NCBI GenBank assembly: GCA_947303395.1
Contig: CAMYYD010000012.1
Span: 1 to 64,000 of the forward strand
From: an uncultured Bacteroidales bacterium
Lineage (GTDB): Bacteria; Bacteroidota; Bacteroidia; Bacteroidales; F082
DNA: 64,000 bases
Reading direction: 5' to 3'
Shown here: piece by piece, positions 6,132 to 18,875 of the stretch
Layout of the letters: every line of letters starts with the position of its first letter
Position numbering within the stretch: the first letter of the stretch is position 1
Made by a program: the position numbers and the translations under genes
The notes under the pieces: model-generated
What the model was told of the DNA's origin: nothing
What the model saw: only the letters and a program-made list of their open reading frames with translations
Databases searched by the model: none

Positions 6132-9100
6132 CTAAATATTATTTTTCTTAAAATTTTCAGCCTGCTCAAAAATAGCCTTGAACACTTCGTCTCTTGTCGC
6201 AGGTGGATAGTCGTGTTTGGCGAGTGTTAATATTATTTTTACTTTTAGCTGTGCCGTAATATCTGCACGTTTATCCCAATCGATAAATTGAGAACCATCA
6301 TCTACAACATCCTTGACGTCTTTTGCCATAGCAATATACTCTTCTTCCGTATATTTATCTAAGAACCCGTATTGCTCCGCCACTGATTTTAAAATATCAT
6401 AAAACGCTTTGACTTCAATGTTTGGAATTCCGTCAGGCAAAACGCTGTCTTTCTTAATGTCTTCAAACAAATCAGCCAACTGCTTTGCGACTTCTGTAAC
6501 GATTTCGTCAGCCAAAACGATGTCATCCGATCGGTCGTTGTATTTGTCGATAATTTCTTTCAAACGGTCTGTAAAACTGACAGCTTTTACCTTGTTAACC
6601 CGTCTGACGCTATCAATAACACGCTTCAGCAACTGCTCCATCAACTTGACTTTTGTGTTTTGATATGGCAAACGTTTCAGCTTCTCCATATACTGCGTGG
6701 CAAGCATATCAATTTGCTCAGAATTGTCGAGTCGCATGGTGTTTATAGCGACAACTTCTTCAGAAACAAGTGCTTCATTAACAAGCTTCAGCACATGTTT
6801 GTTCATCTGTGTGGCATCCGGCGCAACACCTGTTGTAGTCTTATAAATGATTGAACGCACGCCGGAGAAGAAATGAACATCATTGACTTCGTCATTTTTG
6901 ATACGCTCGTCGTTGTTGCACATATTGTACGCCGATTTCATGATTAAAGTATGCTTCATGAAGCGCTTTTCCGACTCAGCAGTCTGTTGGATGCGCTCTG
7001 CGGCAATTTGCAGCGTATTCAGCTGTTCAAGCGGTGTTCCTGTGAAGAATTTGCTATAATCGAATCCATTGAACATTCGTCTAAGCAAGTCGAGTTCATC
7101 CTTGAACAGCTTCACAGCGGCATCGATAGTATCAACTGGAGTGCCGTTCTGTCCACCAGAGGCATATTTCTTCATCGCCTGATTAAACTTTTTCTTAATT
7201 CCAAGATAATCAACGATTAAGCCCTTGTCTTTTCCAGGATAATTTCTATTCACACGACTAACTGTCTGAATCAACGTGTGCATTTGCAACGGCTTATAGC
7301 AATACATCGTGTCGAGACAAGGCACATCGAAACCGGTAATCCACATGTCAACAACAATGGCAATCTTGAAGTTAGATTTGTCTTCTTTAAACTGTAGGTC
7401 AAGTTTCTTGCGGTCATCGTCGGTGCCTAACAGATTGTATAATTCAGGGTCGTCGTCTTTCTGACGTATGCACACCAATTTGATTTTCTCAATCGGCTTG
7501 ATTTTTTCAGATTCTTCTTTTGTCAGCTCCTCGCCTTCTCCGCAAATCTTCACCTCTGCCCATTCCGGACGCATGGCAACAATCTCTTTATAGATTGAAA
7601 ACGCTATTTCACGTGTCGCACACACAATCATCGCCTTGCCTTTTACTGTGCTACCCTCTTCCACTCTACGCTCGTAATGCTGCACAAAATCGACCGCCAA
7701 ACGATGAATCAAATCCGGACTGTTGAGTAATATGCTCATTTGCGTCATTGCACGTTTGCTTTCTTCGATCTGATATTCCGACGAGCCTTCTTCGGCGCAT
7801 TTGTCGTAATATGCCTCGATTTGTTTTATGAGCTCGCTGTCGGCGAATACATGCGATGCACGTCCTTCATACATAATGGTTTTGGTGATACCATCCTCAA
7901 CGGCCTCAATCATTGAATATTCATCAACAATGCCACCAAATACGTCAAGTGTAGGGTCGATTGGAGTGCCGGTAAATCCGACATAAGTAGCGTTTGGCAA
8001 CGAATCGCGCAGATATTTTGCAAAACCGTATGAGCGTTTGACGCCTTTATCAGTAATCTCCACTTTCTCTTCCAAACTTGTCTGTGTACGATGGGCTTCA
8101 TCGCTGATACAGATGATGTTAGCTCTGTTTGAAAGCAGATTTATATCCTTTGAGAATTTTTGTATTGTCGTTAAGAATACACCACCACTTGTCCTACCCT
8201 GCAGTTTAGACTTCAAATCCTCACGACTTTCAACCTGTTCAATGACGCTGTCACCAACAAACTGTTTTGCATTGAGCAACAAACGTGACAGCTGGTCGTC
8301 AAGGTCGGTACGGTCGGTTATGAGGATAATCGTTGGGCTGCATAATGCTTTGCTTTTCATAAGTAAACGGCATAAGAATAACATTGTCAACGACTTACCA
8401 CAACCTGTTGCGCCGAAATATGTACCGCCTTTGCCGTCTCCGTTAGGATTCAGCTTGCTATGGTTCTGTATATTCTGATAAAGCGAACGTGCTGCGAAAT
8501 ACTGGGGATAACGACAGATATATTTGCGCTCATCTTTTGATGTATCGGGGAAATAAACGAAGTTGTGGATGACATCGACGAGACGGTCTTTACGGAAAAG
8601 TCCTGCAATCATCGTTTTCAGCGAGTTGATGCCATCGCCAGCCTTGTCTTTGGCGTTGACTTTTCGCCAGGCGTAGAAAAACTCATAAGGTGTATAAAGT
8701 GTTCCGAATTTGTTGTTCACCCCATCCGAAACGACAATAAACGCCGTGTATTTGAAAAGCTGAGGAATATCGCGACGATAACGGATTGTCAGTTGTTTGT
8801 ATGCGTCTTCTATTGTCGTATTCTGTTTGAGAGCGTTTTTGAATTCAAACACCACCATCGGCAAGCCATTTATAAAAATGATTGCATCTGGGATGCGAAG
8901 TGTGTTGCCGACAATCTCAAACTGGTTTAACACCTTGAATTTGTTATATTTTTGATTTGCCTCATCGAAAGCTATCGGATAGATATAGAGATTTTGTTTT
9001 GTGGCATCCTCACGTTTCAGTGAGAAGCCATCCATCAGCAGATTCAGAGTATGCTTGTTTTCATCGTAAAGCGAGCCGCCAGTCCTCTGTTTTATCACGC

Positions 9101-9299
9101 GTATTGCGCTCTCCACCTCTTGCTCTGTGATGCCGTCGTTTTTATAGCGGTTACGCAGATATTGCGCGAGGTCGTCGTGCAGCACCACCTCATCGAGGTC
9201 GCGCTCTGTAAGAGCATCGCCCTTCACATAATCGTAGTCCTGCTCAAGCAGCAATGCGATTATCGACTGTTCTAACTGGCTTTCGTTGAAGTATGGCAT
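6132..9299 (-). CDS. hsdR: Type I restriction enzyme, R subunit (HsdR)
   Basis: The 1055-aa motor and nuclease subunit of a type I restriction-modification complex: it translocates unmodified DNA with ATP and cuts it. The N-terminal PD-(D/E)xK nuclease has IPD (~136-138) and VVFEFKN (E152, K154). The SF2 motor has Walker A GATGCGKS (~296-303, TGCGKS instead of the usual TGSGKS), SDEAHRTQ (~399-406), VGFTGTPID and QTVSRVNR. The C-terminal helical domain contacts HsdM/HsdS. The start ATG (9297-9299) lies 11 bp after the rloB stop. A 71-bp near-copy of its 5' end lies at 11445-11515, beyond rloAB. It is the last gene of the restriction operon. Confidence 0.95.
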   Translation of the reverse strand: MPYFNESQLEQSIIALLLEQDYDYVKGDALTERDLDEVVLHDDLAQYLRNRYKNDGITEQEVESAIRVIKQRTGGSLYDENKHTLNLLMDGFSLKREDATKQNLYIYPIAFDEANQKYNKFKVLNQFEIVGNTLRIPDAIIFINGLPMVVFEFKNALKQNTTIEDAYKQLTIRYRRDIPQLFKYTAFIVVSDGVNNKFGTLYTPYEFFYAWRKVNAKDKAGDGINSLKTMIAGLFRKDRLVDVIHNFVYFPDTSKDERKYICRYPQYFAARSLYQNIQNHSKLNPNGDGKGGTYFGATGCGKSLTMLFLCRLLMKSKALCSPTIILITDRTDLDDQLSRLLLNAKQFVGDSVIEQVESREDLKSKLQGRTSGGVFLTTIQKFSKDINLLSNRANIICISDEAHRTQTSLEEKVEITDKGVKRSYGFAKYLRDSLPNATYVGFTGTPIDPTLDVFGGIVDEYSMIEAVEDGITKTIMYEGRASHVFADSELIKQIEAYYDKCAEEGSSEYQIEESKRAMTQMSILLNSPDLIHRLAVDFVQHYERRVEEGSTVKGKAMIVCATREIAFSIYKEIVAMRPEWAEVKICGEGEELTKEESEKIKPIEKIKLVCIRQKDDDPELYNLLGTDDDRKKLDLQFKEDKSNFKIAIVVDMWITGFDVPCLDTMYCYKPLQMHTLIQTVSRVNRNYPGKDKGLIVDYLGIKKKFNQAMKKYASGGQNGTPVDTIDAAVKLFKDELDLLRRMFNGFDYSKFFTGTPLEQLNTLQIAAERIQQTAESEKRFMKHTLIMKSAYNMCNNDERIKNDEVNDVHFFSGVRSIIYKTTTGVAPDATQMNKHVLKLVNEALVSEEVVAINTMRLDNSEQIDMLATQYMEKLKRLPYQNTKVKLMEQLLKRVIDSVRRVNKVKAVSFTDRLKEIIDKYNDRSDDIVLADEIVTEVAKQLADLFEDIKKDSVLPDGIPNIEVKAFYDILKSVAEQYGFLDKYTEEEYIAMAKDVKDVVDDGSQFIDWDKRADITAQLKVKIILTLAKHDYPPATRDEVFKAIFEQAENFKKNNI

Positions 9300-9310
9300 T
9301 GGCTTATAAT

Positions 9311-10033
9311 TTATTTAAACACTTTATATACATATGAATACGAATGTATATCCAAATCTCCTTTAGCTTCATATGTTTTAATATTACATTCTGCACGCTT
9401 AATAGCATCGTCCAACTTGCCATCTGCGCACAGATTTTTCACCCATGTTGAATCCTCCAAACACTTTGTTTTCTTGAGCAACTTTTTTAGACTTTGATTG
9501 GGATTTGGAAAACATGGTTTAATATATGATGCTAAAAGTCTTGAAACGGCAGGATAGTTCTTTAAAAACCCCGTATAATTTTCAAAATGAAGCAAGAACC
9601 AATATTCAATGTTTGGCATATTTTGGCATATAGAAACTATGCCTTTTGATATTTCGGCTTGAAATTTTTTCACAAAAGCTTCATGTTTTTTTATTTTCAC
9701 ATCATCACCATAAATTGTATCCCAATCAAAAACACAAAAGATTCTTGCATCTGTATTATTATTTAATATCTCCGTTATCCTTTGTGGAAACGCCTCCGTA
9801 TAATTTGACTCATCACCAAAATACTCTGGTTTAATAATAAACTTATACTTAGTAGTATTACTGATATGAGTAAAATAATACCGCTCTGTATTTGTTCCAC
9901 CACTGATTAGAAATGGATATAATGGTACCATATCCCGTATACCCACATTTTCTTCATGCGATGGAACTAAACCAGCCTTAAAATATTGCCGTTGTTTAAT
10001 GTCTTCCGCTAGTTCTCTCTTTTCCATACTCAC
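9311..10033 (-). CDS. rloB: RloB-like TOPRIM protein
   Basis: A 240-aa RloB-family protein, the likely nuclease partner of the ATPase encoded just upstream. The TOPRIM-like pattern is visible: acidic Glu in ISGGTNTERYYF (~E50), CVFDWDT (~100-106, DxD at 103 and 105), then the RloB hallmark NMPNIEYWFLLHFENYTG (~138-155). The family takes its name from R-linked ORFs found inside type I restriction loci of Campylobacter, exactly the setting here. Similar ATPase plus RloB pairs form the AbiL abortive-infection system, and PARIS uses a comparable ATPase/TOPRIM architecture. It overlaps rloA by 4 bp, so the two are translationally coupled. Confidence 0.8.
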   Translation of the reverse strand: MSMEKRELAEDIKQRQYFKAGLVPSHEENVGIRDMVPLYPFLISGGTNTERYYFTHISNTTKYKFIIKPEYFGDESNYTEAFPQRITEILNNNTDARIFCVFDWDTIYGDDVKIKKHEAFVKKFQAEISKGIVSICQNMPNIEYWFLLHFENYTGFLKNYPAVSRLLASYIKPCFPNPNQSLKKLLKKTKCLEDSTWVKNLCADGKLDDAIKRAECNIKTYEAKGDLDIHSYSYVYKVFK

Positions 10034-11319
10034 TTCATAGTAGCACCAAAACGTTTGTTGCGATAAGCTTCTCGAATAGAAGATAAACGATTAATACCTC
10101 TAAAGTCTGTTAGTTTGTACAAATCCGTAACACCAGATTTCTTCTTTTCAGTGAACCATACAGCATCTTTTCTAATCAAATCATCAACCAAATCTAATAA
10201 TCCATCATAGTGTGTAGCTACAAGTATTTGTGATCTATTAGAATTCCTTAGAAACTCATACAAAATCTTTTCTAATAATTTGGGGTGTAATGAAGTCTCA
10301 ATCTCATCAATTGGCAAAACCCCTTTTTTTTGCAGTACACTATATAATGCTGCCTCTAGACCAAATACACGTATAGTTCCTCGTGATTCTTCTTTCCCAA
10401 CAAACTGATATGTTTCTTCTCCTCTTTCATTTTCCACCGTATGCACAAAATGTGTTTGAAGTTGTTTCATGGTTTTTTCTTTTTTAAGACGATCTTTCTC
10501 ATTCTTTGAGATGTCATCATTTTCGAGAAGCATCTTCAGGGTGTCCTCAGAAAGTTGTCTATCAACAACATTAGTTAAAATGTTTGTAATATTAAAATCC
10601 GCTTCCTTTAAAAAGCCAAGAATATGATTAACTACATCTTTATCTTCTGAAGCCTTTTGTTGCGCATACCTCGTTAAACTTGTAACAGGAGTAATTGTTT
10701 GCATAATCTGATTTCTCAACCAATCTTTAGCTGTATCAATATGAGGAAGAGTAACATTAACTTGATTGCGAGCCACAAAAAAAGACATATTTTTCAAGCA
10801 TTTTAAGCTTATTTCCTCTTCTGCAGTACCGCTAATCTTGTCGGCATTATTGTTCGTTTTGTTGAAATGGATTACAGATTGTCCATTTTCCAACACCCTC
10901 TCAAATAATAATATTGGTTGTGTGCTATTATAATATGATAATTTCTCTAGATAAACTTGATGTTCATCCAGCTCCAATTGATAACAATATTTTGTGCTGT
11001 TAACAAAAAACACTATTTCAAAACTTGATGGTAATGCCGATGACGTATTATCAAGTTTAAATGGGACTATACCTGTATTCTCATCCAGATCATATGGTTT
11101 ATTAGACCAAAAATGCCACAAATCATCAAACACTTTTAGTAAATTAGATTTTCCTGATGCATTGTATCCATATACGATAGCATAGCGTAATAGTCTTGTG
11201 CTCTCATTTACTTGAACCACTTGATAGTCTTCAGCAAATTTGTCTTTGGTTGCTTCAAAACTAAGAGTCACTTCATCTTTGAACGACAAATAGTTTTTTA
11301 TTTTCATTTCCTGAATCAT
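10030..11319 (-). CDS. rloA: AAA15/RloA-like ATPase
   Basis: A 429-aa ABC/SMC-like ATPase of the AAA15 group (RloA, AbiLi, AriA relatives). Walker A is GYNASGKSN (~51-59) after the conserved IKNYLSFKDEVTLSFEA start; the ABC signature region and Walker B with D-loop are at LPIDEIETSLHPKL (~335-348), followed by the H-loop ILVATH. The middle insert (~200-300) is helical and charged. Together with RloB it probably forms a phage-sensing complex that releases or activates the TOPRIM effector. It has its own -7 box (11345-11352), which suits an independently acquired cassette inside the hsd operon. Confidence 0.8.
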   Translation of the reverse strand: MIQEMKIKNYLSFKDEVTLSFEATKDKFAEDYQVVQVNESTRLLRYAIVYGYNASGKSNLLKVFDDLWHFWSNKPYDLDENTGIVPFKLDNTSSALPSSFEIVFFVNSTKYCYQLELDEHQVYLEKLSYYNSTQPILLFERVLENGQSVIHFNKTNNNADKISGTAEEEISLKCLKNMSFFVARNQVNVTLPHIDTAKDWLRNQIMQTITPVTSLTRYAQQKASEDKDVVNHILGFLKEADFNITNILTNVVDRQLSEDTLKMLLENDDISKNEKDRLKKEKTMKQLQTHFVHTVENERGEETYQFVGKEESRGTIRVFGLEAALYSVLQKKGVLPIDEIETSLHPKLLEKILYEFLRNSNRSQILVATHYDGLLDLVDDLIRKDAVWFTEKKKSGVTDLYKLTDFRGINRLSSIREAYRNKRFGATMK

Positions 11320-11344
11320 AATTTTTTGTTGTTATTACACGCTG

Positions 11345-11352
11345 CAAATATA
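11345..11352 (-). promoter_or_regulatory. -7 box for rloAB
   Basis: CAAATATA on the plus strand reads TATATTTG on the minus strand, a match to TAnnTTTG about 25 bp before the rloA start at 11319. The surrounding ~100 bp is strongly AT-rich. Confidence 0.5.
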
Positions 11353-11444
11353 AAACAAAAATCAATTAAAAACCATTTTTATTTTAAAAATTTACATATT
11401 TTGTGCAAAATTTAAAAATTAAACAATAAATAATTTATTTCTAC

Positions 11445-11515
11445 TAATCATAATCCTGCTCAAGCAGCAGTGCGATTATCGACTGTTCTAACTGGCTTTC
11501 GTTGAAGTATGGCAT
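11445..11515 (-). pseudogene. Fossil copy of the hsdR 5' end
   Basis: These 71 bp match the first 71 bp of hsdR (9229-9299) at 68 positions. Read on the minus strand they give ATG and 23 codons identical in amino acids to the HsdR N-terminus (MPYFNESQLEQSIIALLLEQ, then DYD) before a TAG stop. The three differences are all synonymous or at the stop-forming end (GAC/GAT, TAC/TAT, TTG/CTG), so this piece looks like the remains of a once-functional hsdR allele rather than a random duplication. With the real hsdR start it brackets the rloAB cassette as a direct repeat. Confidence 0.85.
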
Positions 11516-11548
11516 AAATCTCTGTTTTGTCTTAGGATTATCGAAATA

Positions 11549-12595
11549 CTATATATAACTCTTTAATGAGATATTCTTACCTGTTTTAATATTATAATTA
11601 AGAATAGCAATAGCATATCCAACAGGTGTCAAAGCAATTGTTCTCAAATCACTCAATTTATCATCCCAGTCTTTTATAAATGATCTAATTCGAGAATTTA
11701 TTGAGCACAAAAATGCCAATATATCATCATTACTCATTTTATTTTGATTATGGAGTTGCATTATTTGCGTGGAAACTCTTTCTAGTTTATTTTGCCTTAT
11801 AATGGTTGTCAATACCGTTTCGTTTATTGCATTAAATTGCATCAGTGATAAATTTTGCTGGCATTTCGCTAATATTGGAATAATCTGATCACAATCTTTC
11901 GAAAAAGTTTGTTTAAATGTCTCATCTGAAAAACCTTTATTAAATAAGCCGCCATATTTAAGATTTAATATATCAATAAATGGTTTATATGTACTAATTC
12001 CACCTAAAAAAGTACAACATCCTGTGTATTGTAAATGAGTATATATTGAATTCGACTTTTTATTTGGATAAAAAGTCATTAGTCTATTATTAATAAAATC
12101 CTTAAAATCATCTATATTAGTTATGCGGTGAGTGATATAAACCGCTGACAATATCAGGGATAGTATGTTAATCTGATCTTGTGTTAGTTTGGGGATTATT
12201 TCTATAGCTTCATCCAAAACAATTTGTTCCATACTACGCTCTTTAGCCTCCATTCTTTGAATCAACATTCCTAACATGCGCTCTTTTAACTCTGCATCTC
12301 CTGTTTTTACATAGTTTTTAATAACAGAGAATGCTGAATATTGAATAGAAGGATCTTTTAATCTCACGCTCAGTTCAGGATGTTCTTCAAACAGCTTTTT
12401 AGTAAAATCATCCACAATTTCATTTGCACGTTTTTCTGCTGTTTGGGCTGCCTCATTCATCATTTTTTGACAATTAGCATTAAAAACGTCTAAGGCTATT
12501 TGTCTTGCTTCTGTATATGAAATGCCACAAGTAACATCACCGATTACTTGTATATTCTTTGAATTATCTCCTCCCTCTTGTTTCTGAATATCCAT
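11549..12595 (-). CDS. LPO_1073/Vpar_1526-like protein
   Basis: A 348-aa soluble protein that I recognise as resembling the LPO_1073/Vpar_1526 family, proteins of unknown function often found in accessory regions. The N-terminus has the motif QEGGDNSKNIQVIGD (~6-20), followed by ISYTEARQIALDVFNANCQK, AEKRANEIVDDFTKKLFEEHPE and YVKTGDAELKERMLGMLIQR. The rest is helical and ends in TPVGYAIAILNYNIKTGKNI. No catalytic motif is visible. It is the third gene of a tight operon (abiH, 68-aa membrane peptide, this gene; gaps -1 and 7 bp). The motif is repeated at the C-terminus of the membrane peptide with 11 of 15 residues identical. Confidence 0.6.
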   Translation of the reverse strand: MDIQKQEGGDNSKNIQVIGDVTCGISYTEARQIALDVFNANCQKMMNEAAQTAEKRANEIVDDFTKKLFEEHPELSVRLKDPSIQYSAFSVIKNYVKTGDAELKERMLGMLIQRMEAKERSMEQIVLDEAIEIIPKLTQDQINILSLILSAVYITHRITNIDDFKDFINNRLMTFYPNKKSNSIYTHLQYTGCCTFLGGISTYKPFIDILNLKYGGLFNKGFSDETFKQTFSKDCDQIIPILAKCQQNLSLMQFNAINETVLTTIIRQNKLERVSTQIMQLHNQNKMSNDDILAFLCSINSRIRSFIKDWDDKLSDLRTIALTPVGYAIAILNYNIKTGKNISLKSYI

Positions 12596-12602
12596 ACTCT
12601 AC

Positions 12603-12809
12603 TTACTTGTTTATTTCAGTATAATCACCATTAACTTGAATGTTTGTTGAGTTTCTACCACCTTTTTGTGTTTGTTTATTTTTCACAGAGTATTTATTTC
12701 TATAGTAATAGGAAGTTCCACCTATTCCCAACAAAGCACCTAATAATACTGACAATAATGCGCCTACAATGTTATCAGTTATCCAAAACAATATCTGTTC
12801 CATAATCAC
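12603..12809 (-). CDS. 68-aa membrane peptide with GGxNSxNIQVxGD tail
   Basis: A small predicted inner-membrane protein. Residues ~13-35 form one glycine-rich hydrophobic helix (VGALLSVLLGALLGIGG), followed by a basic linker RNKYSVKNK and the tail QKGGRNSTNIQVNGDY (~48-63). The tail matches the N-terminus of the downstream protein; of the 11 shared residues, 6 use different codons, so the motif is kept by selection on protein and not by recent duplication. Its ATG overlaps the last base of abiH. Possible roles are membrane recruitment or an assembly-triggered membrane effector; neither is shown by sequence alone. Confidence 0.7.
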   Translation of the reverse strand: MIMEQILFWITDNIVGALLSVLLGALLGIGGTSYYYRNKYSVKNKQTQKGGRNSTNIQVNGDYTEINK

Positions 12810-13765
12810 TATTTTTTAAACATTAACGAATTAATGGCAATAAAGAATCTGTTATCCATATCATTCGATGTAATTCCCATCTTTGAGTATAGTCTTTGCC
12901 TTTCTCTTCTCTCTACCATTGTTAATCTATATTTTCTTGTTTCAGGTATCTCCCCAGGACAATATAAAAAACTTATTACTCCTATGTCTTGTCTCTTATT
13001 AAGCTCATTACCTAATAATTTCCACCAGCGCATATCAGTATCTCCAAAAGAAACACCAAACAACACCACCAGATTAGCTGCTTGTATTAGGTCTTCACAC
13101 TTTCTATGACGAACATTTTTCATGGCAGCATTCGCATTTACTTTTATTAAAAAACTTGCGATATCATCAGAATTTTGGAATGAAATATTTTTTATTTGGT
13201 TTTTATTATCCACACCAATAATAATTGTATCACCAAGTTGCCCATGTACATGACAAATACTTTGTAATATAGAATGTCGTTTCTCATTAAAAACATTGTT
13301 ATCACCCATCAATTTTTCAAATGTATAAGTGTAATTCAAAGATATTACGTTATAATTAATACCGACTGAAGGGTTAATACTATTTATTATAAAATCATTA
13401 TACAAAGGTCTATCAACTTCAGCCAAATATTGCTCAGGGTTTTGGATGTCCATCATAAACTTGTATCTCGTATTATTACCCAACAAATAATTATCATCTT
13501 CTAATTGTAAATAATTTTGTAGGTGTTGGCTTAGTTCATCATGCAAACTGTCCATGTCTTCTTCGGTTTTAACTTTTGACGTAAAAACACCTAAAGCTTC
13601 CTCCATATCAGACCACAATTTTGTATCCTCTTTTATATCTTTCTTCATTTGCTCTAAAAGCGGACTACATTCGGTTTTCATCAAATATTGATAAAATTCC
13701 GGATAACTTGTATGCATTCCTTGTGCTTTGTCAAAGCCGTTTCCTAAAATGTAAAGAACATTCAT
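12809..13765 (-). CDS. AbiH-family protein
   Basis: A 318-aa member of the AbiH family (named for a lactococcal abortive-infection gene). Diagnostic parts: N-terminal LYILGNGFDKAQGMHTSY (~4-21), NYNVISLNYTYTFEKL (~137-152), CHVHGQLGD (~171-179) and NLVVLFGVSFGDTDMRWW (~231-248). The GNGFD, FNYT-like, HxHG and FGxSFGDxD pattern resembles the SIR2-like nucleotide-binding fold, so an NAD-consuming effector is plausible but not proven. It leads the operon with the 68-aa membrane peptide and the LPO_1073-like gene. Upstream, after 13 bp, lies a fossil hsdS 3' end, so this gene probably once followed hsdS directly. Confidence 0.8.
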   Translation of the reverse strand: MNVLYILGNGFDKAQGMHTSYPEFYQYLMKTECSPLLEQMKKDIKEDTKLWSDMEEALGVFTSKVKTEEDMDSLHDELSQHLQNYLQLEDDNYLLGNNTRYKFMMDIQNPEQYLAEVDRPLYNDFIINSINPSVGINYNVISLNYTYTFEKLMGDNNVFNEKRHSILQSICHVHGQLGDTIIIGVDNKNQIKNISFQNSDDIASFLIKVNANAAMKNVRHRKCEDLIQAANLVVLFGVSFGDTDMRWWKLLGNELNKRQDIGVISFLYCPGEIPETRKYRLTMVERRERQRLYSKMGITSNDMDNRFFIAINSLMFKK

Positions 13766-13778
13766 AATTATAATATTT

Positions 13779-13808
13779 TTATTTTCCCATCTTCGCCAAT
13801 CGCAAAGA
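13779..13808 (-). pseudogene. Fossil copy of the hsdS 3' end
   Basis: Minus-strand codons read S-L-R-L-A-K-M-G-K-stop, matching the C-terminus of HsdS (S-L-L-L-A-R-M-G-K-stop). 25 of the first 29 bases agree with 14866-14894. The copy lies 13 bp before abiH, the same spacing as hsdS to its present neighbour (14 bp). The rest of the interval 13766-13900 is AT-rich with no other feature visible. Confidence 0.7.
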
Positions 13809-13900
13809 CTATGATTTATTTACTAAAATATATTCATTAAATAATTAATCATATGTTTTATTTGAACAATATTACACAAACCGACTTGTTCTCTAAATAG

Positions 13901-14851
13901 CTATTCAATTGTTATTTTCAATGGGCTTATATCAAAAAAAGCATTAATAGTATTTAATCTATCAAAATAATCCCTACCTAATTGAGGCTGTGTTATTCTC
14001 TGTTTTATTTGATCATACACTTCTTGAGATGAAAACAATGATTTTTGACATGTAATTTGATTGTTTTTATCGTCATGGGTGAAGAGTATTATAGCTGTAG
14101 ATAACAGAGCTATTAGAAAGCCAAATGTATAGGACTCGTTTCCTTTAAAAATATTAGAAAGTTCAAATGGTTTATTCTTTTCCATTGATAAAGAACATGC
14201 ATACACTGCTAATAGACCACTAGCGGAGGTCGTCGTTATAAAATACGTCTTTGCCTTTTCTGTCATTTTTTCATCAAGTTTAGCATCTTGATTATAAATA
14301 TCCGAAGTACTATTAAACGATTCCTCTAACTGCTTTGATATTTTATCTTCTGTTTCTTTCATATGAGTTTTGAACCTATCATCAATTTGTTCCACAATAT
14401 TATCTAATTGCTCTGAAATAGTTTTTGAAGTATTTTGTAATTTCGATTCAGCTATTTTTAGTTCCGACAAAGTACCTTCAATTTGATCTGAAGCGTTTTT
14501 TATGGTATCTGTAGCATTATCAATTCTTGTAAACTGCTTATACATATCAGTACTAGATTGTACTGTTACAAAGATTGCAAGGACTGATAACACCATCGCT
14601 GTAATTGTTGAACCAAACGACAAATAATCAAAGATAGCATTATTAGGACCACCATATTTTGATGTAATAAGCATAATTACCGCAAAACCCAGGAAACCTG
14701 CAATATAGTTTCGATGAATTTTGATGATCTTTTTAGACATTAGACACTCTGTTGGTACAGTCTTTTTCTCAAACAAATGATCACAGATAATGGCAACAAG
14801 TGCAACAGCAGTTGCACAGCCAATCAAAAAAATGATAATTGTAGCATTCAT
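13901..14851 (-). CDS. Membrane protein with central coiled coil
   Basis: A 316-aa protein I do not recognise. Predicted membrane segments lie at ~4-23, ~49-63 and ~76-98; then comes a long heptad-rich region (~100-200) with many Asp/Glu/Lys and repeated I/L spacing (TDTIKNASDQIEGTLSELK); two more membrane segments lie at ~203-222 and ~242-257, and a soluble tail follows. The shape recalls membrane-anchored sensors or effectors with a coiled-coil between membrane bundles. It lies 14 bp after hsdS and before the fossil hsdS end, so it seems to have been inserted at the hsdS 3' end. A defence role is inferred from position only. Confidence 0.6.
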   Translation of the reverse strand: MNATIIIFLIGCATAVALVAIICDHLFEKKTVPTECLMSKKIIKIHRNYIAGFLGFAVIMLITSKYGGPNNAIFDYLSFGSTITAMVLSVLAIFVTVQSSTDMYKQFTRIDNATDTIKNASDQIEGTLSELKIAESKLQNTSKTISEQLDNIVEQIDDRFKTHMKETEDKISKQLEESFNSTSDIYNQDAKLDEKMTEKAKTYFITTTSASGLLAVYACSLSMEKNKPFELSNIFKGNESYTFGFLIALLSTAIILFTHDDKNNQITCQKSLFSSQEVYDQIKQRITQPQLGRDYFDRLNTINAFFDISPLKITIE

Positions 14852-14865
14852 ATTTTTTATTTTTT

Positions 14866-15993
14866 TTATTTCCCCATCCTTGCCAATAGCAAAGATTGTA
14901 ATTCCGTTAATTTTGAATTCTCTTTTTTGTAAACAATAACATTTCTTTTAATTGTTTCAAATTCAGAGTATGCTTTTTCTTGAATATCTTTTGTTGCAAC
15001 GACGACAGACAACTTTTTCATATCTTTATCGCTTAAATGAGCAACGGTTGTCCCTTCAATCGATGTTTCGAGTTCTTTAATAGGATTGAAGATTGAGAAA
15101 TAGATTTGGTATGAAGATAAAGATTCTTTTGGGTTTGGGATAATCCTAACAATTCGTTGGTTTTGAAATGCATATCCACCACTCCATATTGTCATATGAA
15201 AAACACCATCCATTCCAATTAATATATCTCCATCACTTATTTGGTATTTATCGTCTACTTGTTCTGTCGTATATGTATCCGTTTTGTTTTCTAAAATATC
15301 TCTAATCCTAATAACAGGTGTAAATTGATTGTCATCACAAAACAATTCAGAATCAAAAGGATAACCATATATAACTTTCGCCACATCAAATATGGATAAC
15401 TTTCTCCACCCTTCCGGCAGATTCTCCTTATCCACACCATCTACAAACATCTTTCTGTACAACGCTTGCGCTGTTTCTTCCAAATTCGCAATCATCTGCT
15501 CGTTGAGGCGAATGCGGTTTGAAAGCGTTTCGTATTCAGATACAATTTCACGCTGGCAGTCGATTGAAGGAATTGGCAACTGGACATTGCAGAGCTCATC
15601 CCAATCAAACACTTCACGGGCACTGCCATGTGAATGAAATCGAGCATATCGGTCAAACTCTGGACGGCGGAACCACATCATCAAATATTCAGGCAATAAT
15701 GCACTATGATCCACAATCTCAAAAACAGTGTATGCTTGAGAAACTATTGCATTTTCATAATCTGAAAGTAAAGCAATAGCTATTTTATCACCACGTCTCG
15801 ATGTGTCAGCAATATAAACAAATTGACCCTTCTCCACGATTTTATATGAAGACATATCAGTACCAATAGTATTTGCTATTGAAGGCATAAATACCTTAGA
15901 TACACTCAAACCCAACAAGTTCGTAACCTTCAAATCCGAATTACGAACATTAACCTCTCTGATGTAGTCGCCTAAACGTTTATATATTGTCAT
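14866..15993 (-). CDS. hsdS: Type I restriction enzyme, specificity subunit (HsdS)
   Basis: A 375-aa DNA-recognition subunit that sets the target sequence for both methylation and cleavage. Two target-recognition domains are visible (about 1-145 and 190-340), each followed by a conserved helical spacer: QREIVSEYETLSNRIRLNEQ (~156-175) and QEKAYSEFETIKRNV (~338-352), ending in LLLARMGK. The first half begins immediately without the usual N-terminal conserved region. The ATG overlaps the stop of fic by 4 bp (ATGA). There is no second, inverted hsdS nearby, so phase variation by shuffling is not evident here. Confidence 0.93.
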   Translation of the reverse strand: MTIYKRLGDYIREVNVRNSDLKVTNLLGLSVSKVFMPSIANTIGTDMSSYKIVEKGQFVYIADTSRRGDKIAIALLSDYENAIVSQAYTVFEIVDHSALLPEYLMMWFRRPEFDRYARFHSHGSAREVFDWDELCNVQLPIPSIDCQREIVSEYETLSNRIRLNEQMIANLEETAQALYRKMFVDGVDKENLPEGWRKLSIFDVAKVIYGYPFDSELFCDDNQFTPVIRIRDILENKTDTYTTEQVDDKYQISDGDILIGMDGVFHMTIWSGGYAFQNQRIVRIIPNPKESLSSYQIYFSIFNPIKELETSIEGTTVAHLSDKDMKKLSVVVATKDIQEKAYSEFETIKRNVIVYKKENSKLTELQSLLLARMGK

Positions 15994-17141
15994 GCGTAAT
16001 AGTCTTTATTGAATATATCCATATATTTCTGGAAGACAAATATGCGGTTGCGGCTTTGTCCGGTCAGTTCCTTCAGATAATCGTCTTCGCACAAATCCTT
16101 AATGAGCGCATTAGCCGATTTGTATGTAACGCCACAAACTTTAGCGGCATCTTCAACATTCGTGTAAGGATTCTCCAGCAATTTGTGCATCAGCACAATG
16201 GCAGTTGTACTTCTTCTTCCATATCTCTCACGAATGTCATTCTCCATCTGATCCTTAAATCGGATAATATGTGAAAGGGTTTCAACCGCAACAGTTGATG
16301 TCTGTTCTATGCCAACTAAGAAATATTTAATCCATTGCAACATATCGTTTTTAACACGAATGTTGTTCAGATTATCATAATAAATATCCTTTTTTCTCTC
16401 AAAGAAAGTTGAGAGATACAGCAGCGGCTTGTTAAGAATTTTCTCTTTTACCAAAAACAAGGTTATTAGCAATCGCCCGATTCGTCCATTGCCGTCAAGA
16501 AATGGGTGTATGGTTTCAAACTGATAATGTGCGATGGCTATCTTTATGAGCGCAGGCACGTGAATCTCGTCGTTATTCATGAATTTTTCCAAATCGCTCA
16601 TCAAATCGTTTAGCAATTGGAAATGTGGAGGAATATATCGGGCATCAGCTAAAGAAGCGCCGCCTATCCAGTTTTGACTTGTGCGGAACTCTCCAGGCAT
16701 CTTATGTTCGCCACGCACGCTATTTAAAAGAATCTTGTGAGTTGATTTTATTAGCCTCGATGAAATTGGCAAACTTTTTAGTTCTTCAATGGCATCATTT
16801 ATAGCAGCAATATAGTTTTGCACTTCTTGCCAATCGTCTCTCCTTTCAGGAAGAATCTCATTTTTCGGAAGAATTGCCTCATCAATTTTTGTTTGTGTTC
16901 CTTCAATTCGGCTTGAATCAACAGCCTCTTTCATCACATGAAGCTGAATAAACAAATCAATATTTGGCACTAAGCGCGAAAAAGAATTGAGTTCACCCAG
17001 TTTTATGGCCGCCTTTTCCAAAAGATGGTTTATTGTCGGGTCACTCCACGTCCATTCGTCATTTATCAACGAAGGGACAAAATACTTGTAACCATAGCCT
17101 TGTTCGTAATGTCCGGATTCAAATTTTTCGATTTCTATCAT
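15990..17141 (-). CDS. fic: Fic family AMP-transferase, autoinhibited type
   Basis: A 383-aa Fic protein; such enzymes transfer AMP (or another nucleotide part) from ATP to hydroxyl groups of target proteins. The core motif HPFLDGNGRIGR is complete (~212-223). An N-terminal inhibitory motif SSRIEG ([ST]xxxE[GN], ~76-81) marks the class with an intramolecular inhibitory helix. A Fic_N-type region precedes it and a winged-helix-like domain with YTNVEDAAKVCGVTYKSANA closes the protein. It sits between hsdM and hsdS, coupled to hsdS by an ATGA overlap, and has a -7 box 18 bp upstream. The target is unknown. Confidence 0.9.
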   Translation of the reverse strand: MIEIEKFESGHYEQGYGYKYFVPSLINDEWTWSDPTINHLLEKAAIKLGELNSFSRLVPNIDLFIQLHVMKEAVDSSRIEGTQTKIDEAILPKNEILPERRDDWQEVQNYIAAINDAIEELKSLPISSRLIKSTHKILLNSVRGEHKMPGEFRTSQNWIGGASLADARYIPPHFQLLNDLMSDLEKFMNNDEIHVPALIKIAIAHYQFETIHPFLDGNGRIGRLLITLFLVKEKILNKPLLYLSTFFERKKDIYYDNLNNIRVKNDMLQWIKYFLVGIEQTSTVAVETLSHIIRFKDQMENDIRERYGRRSTTAIVLMHKLLENPYTNVEDAAKVCGVTYKSANALIKDLCEDDYLKELTGQSRNRIFVFQKYMDIFNKDYYA

Positions 17142-17158
17142 ATTATCTGTTTTTTCTG

Positions 17159-17166
17159 CAAAGATA
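17159..17166 (-). promoter_or_regulatory. -7 box before fic
   Basis: CAAAGATA on the plus strand is TATCTTTG on the minus strand, 17 bp before the fic start at 17141. The 165-bp hsdM-fic gap (17142-17306) is AT-rich, so fic-hsdS may have its own transcript besides read-through from hsdM. Confidence 0.5.
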
Positions 17167-17306
17167 CAATAAAAAATTCATTATTTTACTTTTTGCTTAA
17201 AAAATAAAATAAAAAAATTCTTATTTACTTTTATAGCGTAAAAATAACATTCAAAGCAACTAAAACATTCCCATTCTTTCCAATATTTTAAAAACTGGAA
17301 AGAATT

Positions 17307-18875
17307 TTATAGTTTGTATCCTAACTTCTCGAACAATTTTTCAAGTTCTTTCTTGCTCTCATCCTCCTGTTTCAGCAATTCACGCATATCTTTTTGAAGC
17401 TCCTGCATCTTGGTGTTGAAGTCAATCTGCTCGTCGCGGTTGCGGAACTCGATATATTTGCTTGGCACAAGACTCCAACCTTTCTGCTCAATCTCACTGC
17501 GAGTGGCAGAATAACAGTATTCCGCCTCGTTGTGATATGTATCTTTACATCCTTCTTGCTGCCAATTATGGTATGTGCGAGTAACCTTATCCCTCGTGTC
17601 GGGGTCAAGTTCAACGTATTTCTTCTCGAAAGGCACGCCCATTTGCCGCAAATCCATGAAAAGAATCTCATTTTCATGGTCGCGATAATGGATCTCCAGT
17701 CCGTTTTTCGTCACCACATGCGCCTTTTTGTTGTTATTCAAAATCCACAAAGTAACGCTAATGTCTGTGGAATAGAACAAGTTTCTCGGCAAAATAATGA
17801 TAGCTTCAACCTTATCATTTTCAATGAGTTTCTTACGGATGGCGAGTTCTATGCCGTCAGCGCTCAAAGCTCCGTTTGCCAACAAGAAACCTGCAACTCC
17901 ATTGGTGGAAAGTTTGGACAGAATGTTCAAAATCCAGCCGTAGTTGGCATTAGATGTCGGAGGTGTATCATAGCCGCTCCAACGGGCATCAGTCGTGAGC
18001 TGGTTATCCTCACGCCAATCTTTTTGGTTAAACGGCGGATTTGCCATTATATAATCGGCTTTCAAATCCTGGTGCTGGTCGTTGTGGAAAGTGTCGCCTT
18101 GCTTGATATCTGCCGAGATACCTCTAATCGCAAGATTCATTCGAGCCAGCTTGAAAGTAGTGTTGGTGTTTTCCTGTCCGTAAACGCTAACGTTCTTTTG
18201 GTTGCCATGGTGGGCCTTCACAAACTTCATCGACTGCACAAACATGCCACCCGAGCCACAACAAGGGTCGTAAATCTTTCCATCGTAAGGCTCAATGAGT
18301 TCAGCTATAAGATTCACTATTGATTTAGGAGTGTAGTATTCTCCTTTACCCTTGCCTTCTTTAATAGCGAATTTACCAAGAAAATACTCGTAAACACGTC
18401 CCATCAGGTCGTTTTCCGAATCTTTCACTGTGTCCAACTTATTTATCTCATCAAGCAGTGAAGCGAATTTGGTTTTATCAAGACCGAGATTGGAATAATA
18501 GTTGTTAGGAAGAGCTCCCGCTAACTGTTTGTTTTTCTTCTCGATGTTTGACAGAGCATCGTCAATAATTTGGAAAATATTTGATTGCTTGGCATTTTCC
18601 ATGATATAAGACCAACGGCACTCTTCTGGCAAATAGAACACATTTTCTGCCGTATAGAATTCAACCTGGTCGATATATTCTTTAAGTCCCTGCTCAATAA
18701 GTTCTTGTTTCCGTTGTTCAAAACGGTCGCCAGCATATTTAAGGAAAATGAGACTCAGTACAACATGTTTATACTCCGAAGGTTCTACAGCTCCACGCAA
18801 TTTGTCACACGACTCCCACAGAGCTGATTCCATGCTTTTCGCTGGTTTTTTATTTTGTTTTTCTGTTTTTGCCAT
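17307..18875 (-). CDS. hsdM: Type I restriction enzyme, methylase subunit (HsdM)
   Basis: A 522-aa N6-adenine methyltransferase subunit. The N-terminal bundle (SALWESCDKLRGAVEPSEYK) is typical. The SAM-binding motif I is DPCCGSGGMF (~203-212), preceded by GEYYTPKSIVNLI (~178-190); catalytic motif IV is NPPF (~279-282). The C-terminal helices with KDMRELLKQEDESKKELEKL contact HsdS. Length is normal. It lies 4 bp after the GIY-YIG gene and is separated from fic by 165 bp. It is needed to protect host DNA, so its expression from the first promoter of the locus is expected. Confidence 0.96.
   Translation of the reverse strand: MAKTEKQNKKPAKSMESALWESCDKLRGAVEPSEYKHVVLSLIFLKYAGDRFEQRKQELIEQGLKEYIDQVEFYTAENVFYLPEECRWSYIMENAKQSNIFQIIDDALSNIEKKNKQLAGALPNNYYSNLGLDKTKFASLLDEINKLDTVKDSENDLMGRVYEYFLGKFAIKEGKGKGEYYTPKSIVNLIAELIEPYDGKIYDPCCGSGGMFVQSMKFVKAHHGNQKNVSVYGQENTNTTFKLARMNLAIRGISADIKQGDTFHNDQHQDLKADYIMANPPFNQKDWREDNQLTTDARWSGYDTPPTSNANYGWILNILSKLSTNGVAGFLLANGALSADGIELAIRKKLIENDKVEAIIILPRNLFYSTDISVTLWILNNNKKAHVVTKNGLEIHYRDHENEILFMDLRQMGVPFEKKYVELDPDTRDKVTRTYHNWQQEGCKDTYHNEAEYCYSATRSEIEQKGWSLVPSKYIEFRNRDEQIDFNTKMQELQKDMRELLKQEDESKKELEKLFEKLGYKL

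Follow-up and report, generated by a model that had tools for sequence, protein, structure and literature searches.

The question raised by this locus is whether three closely packed genes, coding for an AbiH family protein, a short membrane peptide and a protein of the LPO_1073/Vpar_1526 family, form one defence unit, and what is indicated by a motif that the latter two share. A reading made from the sequence alone had proposed a defence triad. In the window, i.e., the whole analyzed stretch of 64,000 nucleotides from an uncultured Bacteroidales bacterium, all three genes were found on the minus strand as claimed, together with the following features:

6132-9299: HsdR of the type I restriction locus
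9311-11319: AbiLi-like AAA_21 ATPase with RloB, in the same type I restriction locus
11549-12595, minus strand: LPO_1073/Vpar_1526 family protein (LPO protein) of 348 aa with N-terminal motif and helical domain (NF045477, E 2.2e-68, residues 24-348)
12536-12580, minus strand: N-terminal shared motif of the LPO protein, QEGGDNSKNIQVIGD (sequence; motif-profile match)
12603-12809, minus strand: short membrane peptide, 68 aa from GTG or 66 aa from the ATG at 12803 (ORF and hydropathy)
12624-12668, minus strand: C-terminal shared motif of the membrane peptide, QKGGRNSTNIQVNGD (sequence; motif-profile match)
12720-12770, minus strand: single transmembrane helix predicted in the peptide at residues 14-30 (17 residues with hydropathy 2.44)
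12809-13765, minus strand: AbiH family gene (Pfam PF14253, E 3.3e-39), a neighbour and not a constant part

The reported 7-bp gap between the peptide and LPO genes was confirmed, whereas the 1-bp overlap of AbiH and the peptide exists only with the GTG start; from the ATG, two codons after the GTG, the peptide begins 5 bp past the AbiH stop. The hydropathy analysis likewise gave one hydrophobic segment, in agreement with the single helix claimed for the peptide. The three genes are embedded in a type I restriction locus (6132-18875), which continues past them with a membrane/coil protein, HsdS, Fic and HsdM. The extra candidate defence genes of this restriction locus are the AbiLi-like ATPase with RloB, the LPO pair (LPO protein and peptide), AbiH, the membrane/coil protein and Fic.

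The LPO protein passes NF045477 with 230.7 bits (cut-off 45) over model positions 1-257 of 257, the match starting at residue 24 immediately past the motif, and it also matches phrog_19542. The membrane partners from E. coli and locus L035 match phrog_27656, to which the window peptide showed no match. NF045477 and both PHROGs are family entries without function whose names do not include the pairing; the motif precedes the start of the NF045477 model, and the LPO family models make no reference to the membrane partner. AlphaFold modelling (18-row alignment) resulted in a mean pLDDT of 87.7 and a pTM of 0.80, with a mainly helical structure from residue 27 on. At residues 1-9 and 11-23 the pLDDT is below 50, so that the N-terminal motif is predicted to be unfolded, low pLDDT being no proof of disorder. 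A solved relative was found neither by sequence nor by fold, which does not show that the fold is new. With PADLOC-DB 2.0.0, the peptide had no match at E 0.01 and the LPO protein matched only a CARF model (E 0.005 over 44 residues), which gives no defence-system membership. NB-ARC and NACHT are absent from the Pfam matches of the LPO protein at E 1 or better, where three matches are listed, all far below the cut-offs. In the open-licence PMC literature, nothing was found for LPO_1073, NF045477, both PHROG names or both E. coli protein accessions, and for Vpar_1526 the accessible text holds one table entry as an uncharacterized protein. In titles and abstract openings of open-licence PMC papers on amyloid signalling and anti-phage defence, the pair was not found, and it may figure among the 169 systems in the supplement of PMC9122126.

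The shared motif was verified in the window pair: 11 of 15 positions are identical between the LPO protein and the membrane peptide, and six of these 11 residues are encoded by different codons, both as described from the sequence alone. As a chance control, the termini of the 57 window ORFs were compared with each other (6,384 comparisons). Here, the motif pair ranks second with a score of 61, behind two CxxCxxC segments (63) that were judged by eye to be iron-sulphur-like, and the third pair scores 45. A motif profile found just two matches in the 2.4-Mb genome of the window (E 10 or better), namely the LPO and peptide motifs; since both had been included in the profile, the informative part is the absence of further sites. 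Frequent occurrence of the motif in unrelated proteins had been named beforehand as a refutation of the reading, and in the genomes searched it is not common there. The motif is short, rich in G, N, S and Q and has an I/V-Q core with a flavour of amyloid signalling, and an amyloid or RHIM-like nature is plausible. Q-A-G is read directly in 22 of 38 LPO motifs and 23 of 38 partner motifs. As many relatives read Q-A-G directly, the 'extra residue' of the window motif against the RHIM-type core is a local variant.

The LPO pair recurs far beyond the window. In all 38 distinct testable loci (window included), which fall into 31 clusters by LPO domain distance, the LPO gene lies directly next to a gene for a short membrane protein that carries a matching motif. 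Using only motif-free queries (the NCBI family model or domain-only alignments), which do not select for the motif because the family model starts just after it, the same holds for 28 of 28 distinct testable loci, again with the window. The sources of the motif-free set were the window, L003, L004 and L005, 16 loci in genome contigs and 17 in viral contigs; the 28 exclude duplicates, L029, L058 and a further two loci that served as query rows, and other searches raised the set to 38. An intact LPO gene without partner was not present among the loci examined; L029, a 62-aa LPO remnant, has none. The co-occurrence expected for three families thus stood for the peptide and LPO_1073 (38/38 loci) but failed for AbiH (1/29 genomes or records).

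Hosts of the pair include a Chlorobiaceae bin, Chitinophaga, a Brocadiaceae bin, alpha-, beta- and gammaproteobacteria, a Desulfomonile bin, Treponema porcinum, an Anaerolineaceae bin and E. coli. The LPO family is rare, with three of 173 genomes in the family of the window and two of 395 in its phylum, which is probably GTDB Bacteroidota, as the Chlorobiaceae bin of L015 is among its members; in six of 5,426 E. coli genomes, a match spans 80% or more of the query. The LPO domains of L015 (Chlorobiaceae bin) and L016 (Brocadiaceae bin) are 92% identical, pointing to recent transfer or mis-binning.

The membrane partners are 55-190 aa long (median 80; 38 loci), and only L027 (190 aa) and L040 (102 aa) exceed 100 aa. 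A simple hydropathy scan revealed one hydrophobic segment in 13 partners and two in 25. The net charge of the window peptide is -2 before and +4 after the helix, and a positive net charge after the last hydrophobic segment was found in 34 of 37 partners (L027 left out). By the positive-inside rule, a positively charged flank lies on the cytoplasmic side, and because of this charge the motif tail is predicted to be cytoplasmic. The partner is located upstream with a C-terminal motif in 36 of the 38 loci. In the Treponema locus L027 the partner gene is downstream and carries its motif at the N-terminus, before the helix; in L057 it is also downstream, but with a C-terminal motif, so the pairing persists despite rearrangement. 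Overall, the motif lies at the LPO N-terminus and the partner C-terminus in 37 of 38 loci, both motifs being N-terminal in L027. Gene gaps range from -26 to +14 bp in all of the first 22 loci. In L022 (5923-7815), two tandem LPO copies, both motif-bearing, share a single peptide gene, and tandem LPO copies with motif behind one membrane peptide gene are likewise present in L034. The Pantoea partner (L013:3621-3875) matches the LPO motif next door, yet is missing from the incomplete gene table.

Pair specificity of the motifs was analyzed with BLOSUM62 local scores of 45-residue ends. The mean own-pair score of the 38 loci was 54.2, compared to 37.9 for permuted pairs, with a maximum of 46.1 in 100,000 permutations. 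For 36 of 38 pairs, the own score was reached by at most five of 500 shuffles, the weak pairs being L027 (13/500) and L061 (18/500). Furthermore, LPO-motif distances track peptide-motif distances beyond LPO domain divergence (partial Mantel r 0.59, 0/5,000; first 22 loci alone: partial r 0.40, p 0.0004). The own partner ranks first in 11, within the top three in 14 of 38 loci, and at a median of 5.5; these low ranks are explained by close relatives sharing nearly the same motif, and within the close proteobacterial group the motifs are interchangeable among loci. Numbered from the registering Q, with automatic registration that misplaced some rows, within-pair agreement exceeds all 5,000 permutations at Q-8, Q-2, Q+1 and Q+3 and at no other position. 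Individual pairs follow suit: L057 has QGG and L070 IQGSKNVNV in both partners. Pairing in all 38 testable loci and the co-variation of the motifs bear out the earlier claim that selection maintains the motif and that the motif links the membrane peptide with the LPO_1073 protein. This suggests that the soluble and the membrane protein may meet through their matching tails.

The closest known arrangement is that of the bacterial amyloid signalling sequences (BASS), in which a short motif at the N-terminus of an NLR matches one at the C-terminus of a Bell protein encoded by the adjacent gene (PMC7889193, PMC8086366), and in which motifs vary between loci and match within a pair (PMC7889193, PMC8086366, PMC12261475). 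The LPO pair shares with BASS the motif at the N-terminus of the soluble protein and the C-terminus of the membrane-helix protein, in neighbouring genes (37/38 loci). In contrast to BASS, there is no NLR, the soluble partner being the LPO_1073 helical domain; the partners, with 55-102 aa in 37 of 38 loci and one or two segments, are probably too small for a Bell bundle; and the pair is found in many unicellular bacteria and prophages. A slight likeness was detected to the printed BASS3 peptide, for which 12 of 44 motif ends, rows not being independent, lie in the top 5% of shuffles (about two expected), and for two other printed BASS peptides the numbers were three and four of 44.

Since gene layout and motif resemble BASS, the LPO protein is favoured as the sensor and the peptide as the membrane effector of a two-gene system. 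The LPO domain would sense an infection cue and oligomerize, and the LPO motifs could then assemble into a short, amyloid-like beta-stack of the kind used in NLR/Bell signalling. This stack would recruit the cytoplasmic peptide tails, and the clustered peptide helices might damage the inner membrane or stop growth, by which phage infection would be aborted. We consider this course, in which motif stacking assembles the peptides into a growth-stopping lesion, to be a nearly even prospect. Adjacency, motif sharing, pair-wise co-variation and the presence of the pair at the P2 hotspot as well as in some type I restriction operons are direct observations. From these we infer stacking, membrane damage, phage sensing and defence. 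If this holds, the arrangement would be new as an NLR-free variant of amyloid-type pair signalling, its parts being families without function. A wider proposal is put forward more tentatively still: NLR-free amyloid signalling may be widespread in unicellular bacteria and prophages, with LPO_1073 as a new kind of infection sensor. Through a beta motif of roughly 20 residues that co-evolves in both partners, this sensor would template minimal one- or two-helix peptides into an assembly that kills the cell or arrests its growth.

The main rival is a RexAB-like pair without amyloid, in which the tails are docking motifs (e.g., for beta-augmentation) and the soluble protein binds and opens the membrane protein or is held inactive by it. 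A precedent exists in RexAB itself, a prophage-borne pair of a soluble and a membrane protein of which the membrane part damages the membrane, with the roles reversed in the RexAB-type system of phage Butters (PMC12894663). The LPO pair is likewise composed of two genes, often prophage-borne, for a soluble and a membrane protein by prediction, and the motif covariation fits any specific contact: simple docking would produce it just as stacking would. However, the same motif in both partners would suit homotypic stacking more than a lock-and-key contact, and no shared motif is described for RexAB in the accessible text of PMC12894663. RexB of P. putida has four predicted helices (PMC12894663), whereas the window peptide has one segment and the LPO partners one (13) or two (25). 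Docking of this kind is regarded as unlikely, though it has to be taken seriously.

A toxin-antitoxin system, with the peptide as toxin and the LPO protein neutralizing it via the motif, or the reverse, would account for a small hydrophobic protein adjoining a larger soluble gene at tight spacing in an often mobile context. It is improbable, as no intact LPO gene without partner occurred among the loci examined and only the 62-aa remnant of L029 stands alone. To our knowledge, toxin and antitoxin do not typically have a motif in common.

The three-gene system first proposed drew on AbiH lying directly upstream in the window with the 1-bp overlap; the gene passes PF14253 with 136 bits (gathering cut-off 30.9). 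Yet, among the 29 genomes or records with the pair (18 genomes and 11 records of plasmids, phages or viruses, several of which are fragments), AbiH was found only in that of the window itself. The second AbiH copy of this genome, on another contig, is accompanied by neither the peptide nor the LPO gene in the 3.8 kb inspected around it. AbiH as part of the triad is therefore largely refuted and very improbable; given its presence in one of 29, it looks like a bystander, and two genes, not three, are the best explanation of the functional unit. That the motif is a trace of recent duplication or a functionless low-complexity tail, as its shortness and richness in G, N, S and Q might allow, is refuted in practice and hardly credible in view of the six differing codons among 11 identical residues, its rarity in genomes (two sites in that of the window) and the co-variation across 31 clusters.

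The genomic context was inspected as well. The E. coli copies occupy the interval of P2-like phage genomes that is bounded by the replication endonuclease and portal genes, a site described as a defence hotspot (PMC9122126, PMC9519451). Copies at this site are located on a plasmid record (L006), in viral contigs (L007-L011) and on a chromosome (L053); the stretch of L008 contains only DinI as landmark and not the replication endonuclease. In L007, L010 and L011 the pair is the only large cargo, with no other ORF of more than 92 aa between the landmarks, and three further genes are carried in L006, L008 and L053. Four loci lie beside type I restriction genes, namely the window, L003 (HsdR), L004 (HsdS and HsdR) and L027 (HsdS), and further loci lie in viral contigs. 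The neighbours are mostly ordinary or phage families, type I restriction being the exception. P2 site, restriction genes and viral contigs are the usual company of defence genes and no proof of defence.

A review of amyloid signalling from 2021 asks whether bacterial signalling amyloids exist in NLR-independent pathways (PMC7889193). The LPO pair is a compact candidate for such an amyloid, and it is amenable to testing in E. coli because natural copies exist in the P2 hotspot without other large cargo. The analysis points out a partner for the LPO family, a very small membrane protein, and a confirmed role would assign a function to a family whose only name so far derives from locus tags.

Besides the pair, several neighbouring genes were recorded. 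In L009 (2638-3378), another copy at the P2 hotspot, the LPO pair is neighboured by a 246-aa ORF that is read in the opposite direction. A divergent set of three genes coding for 227, 359 and 333 aa, a candidate separate system, is located beside the pair at the E. coli P2 hotspot in L006 (2681-5431) and also in L008 and L053. In L063, L065, L066, L069 and L070, the gene after the pair is holin- or XhlA-type-like as judged by eye, which suggests carriage beside lysis genes.
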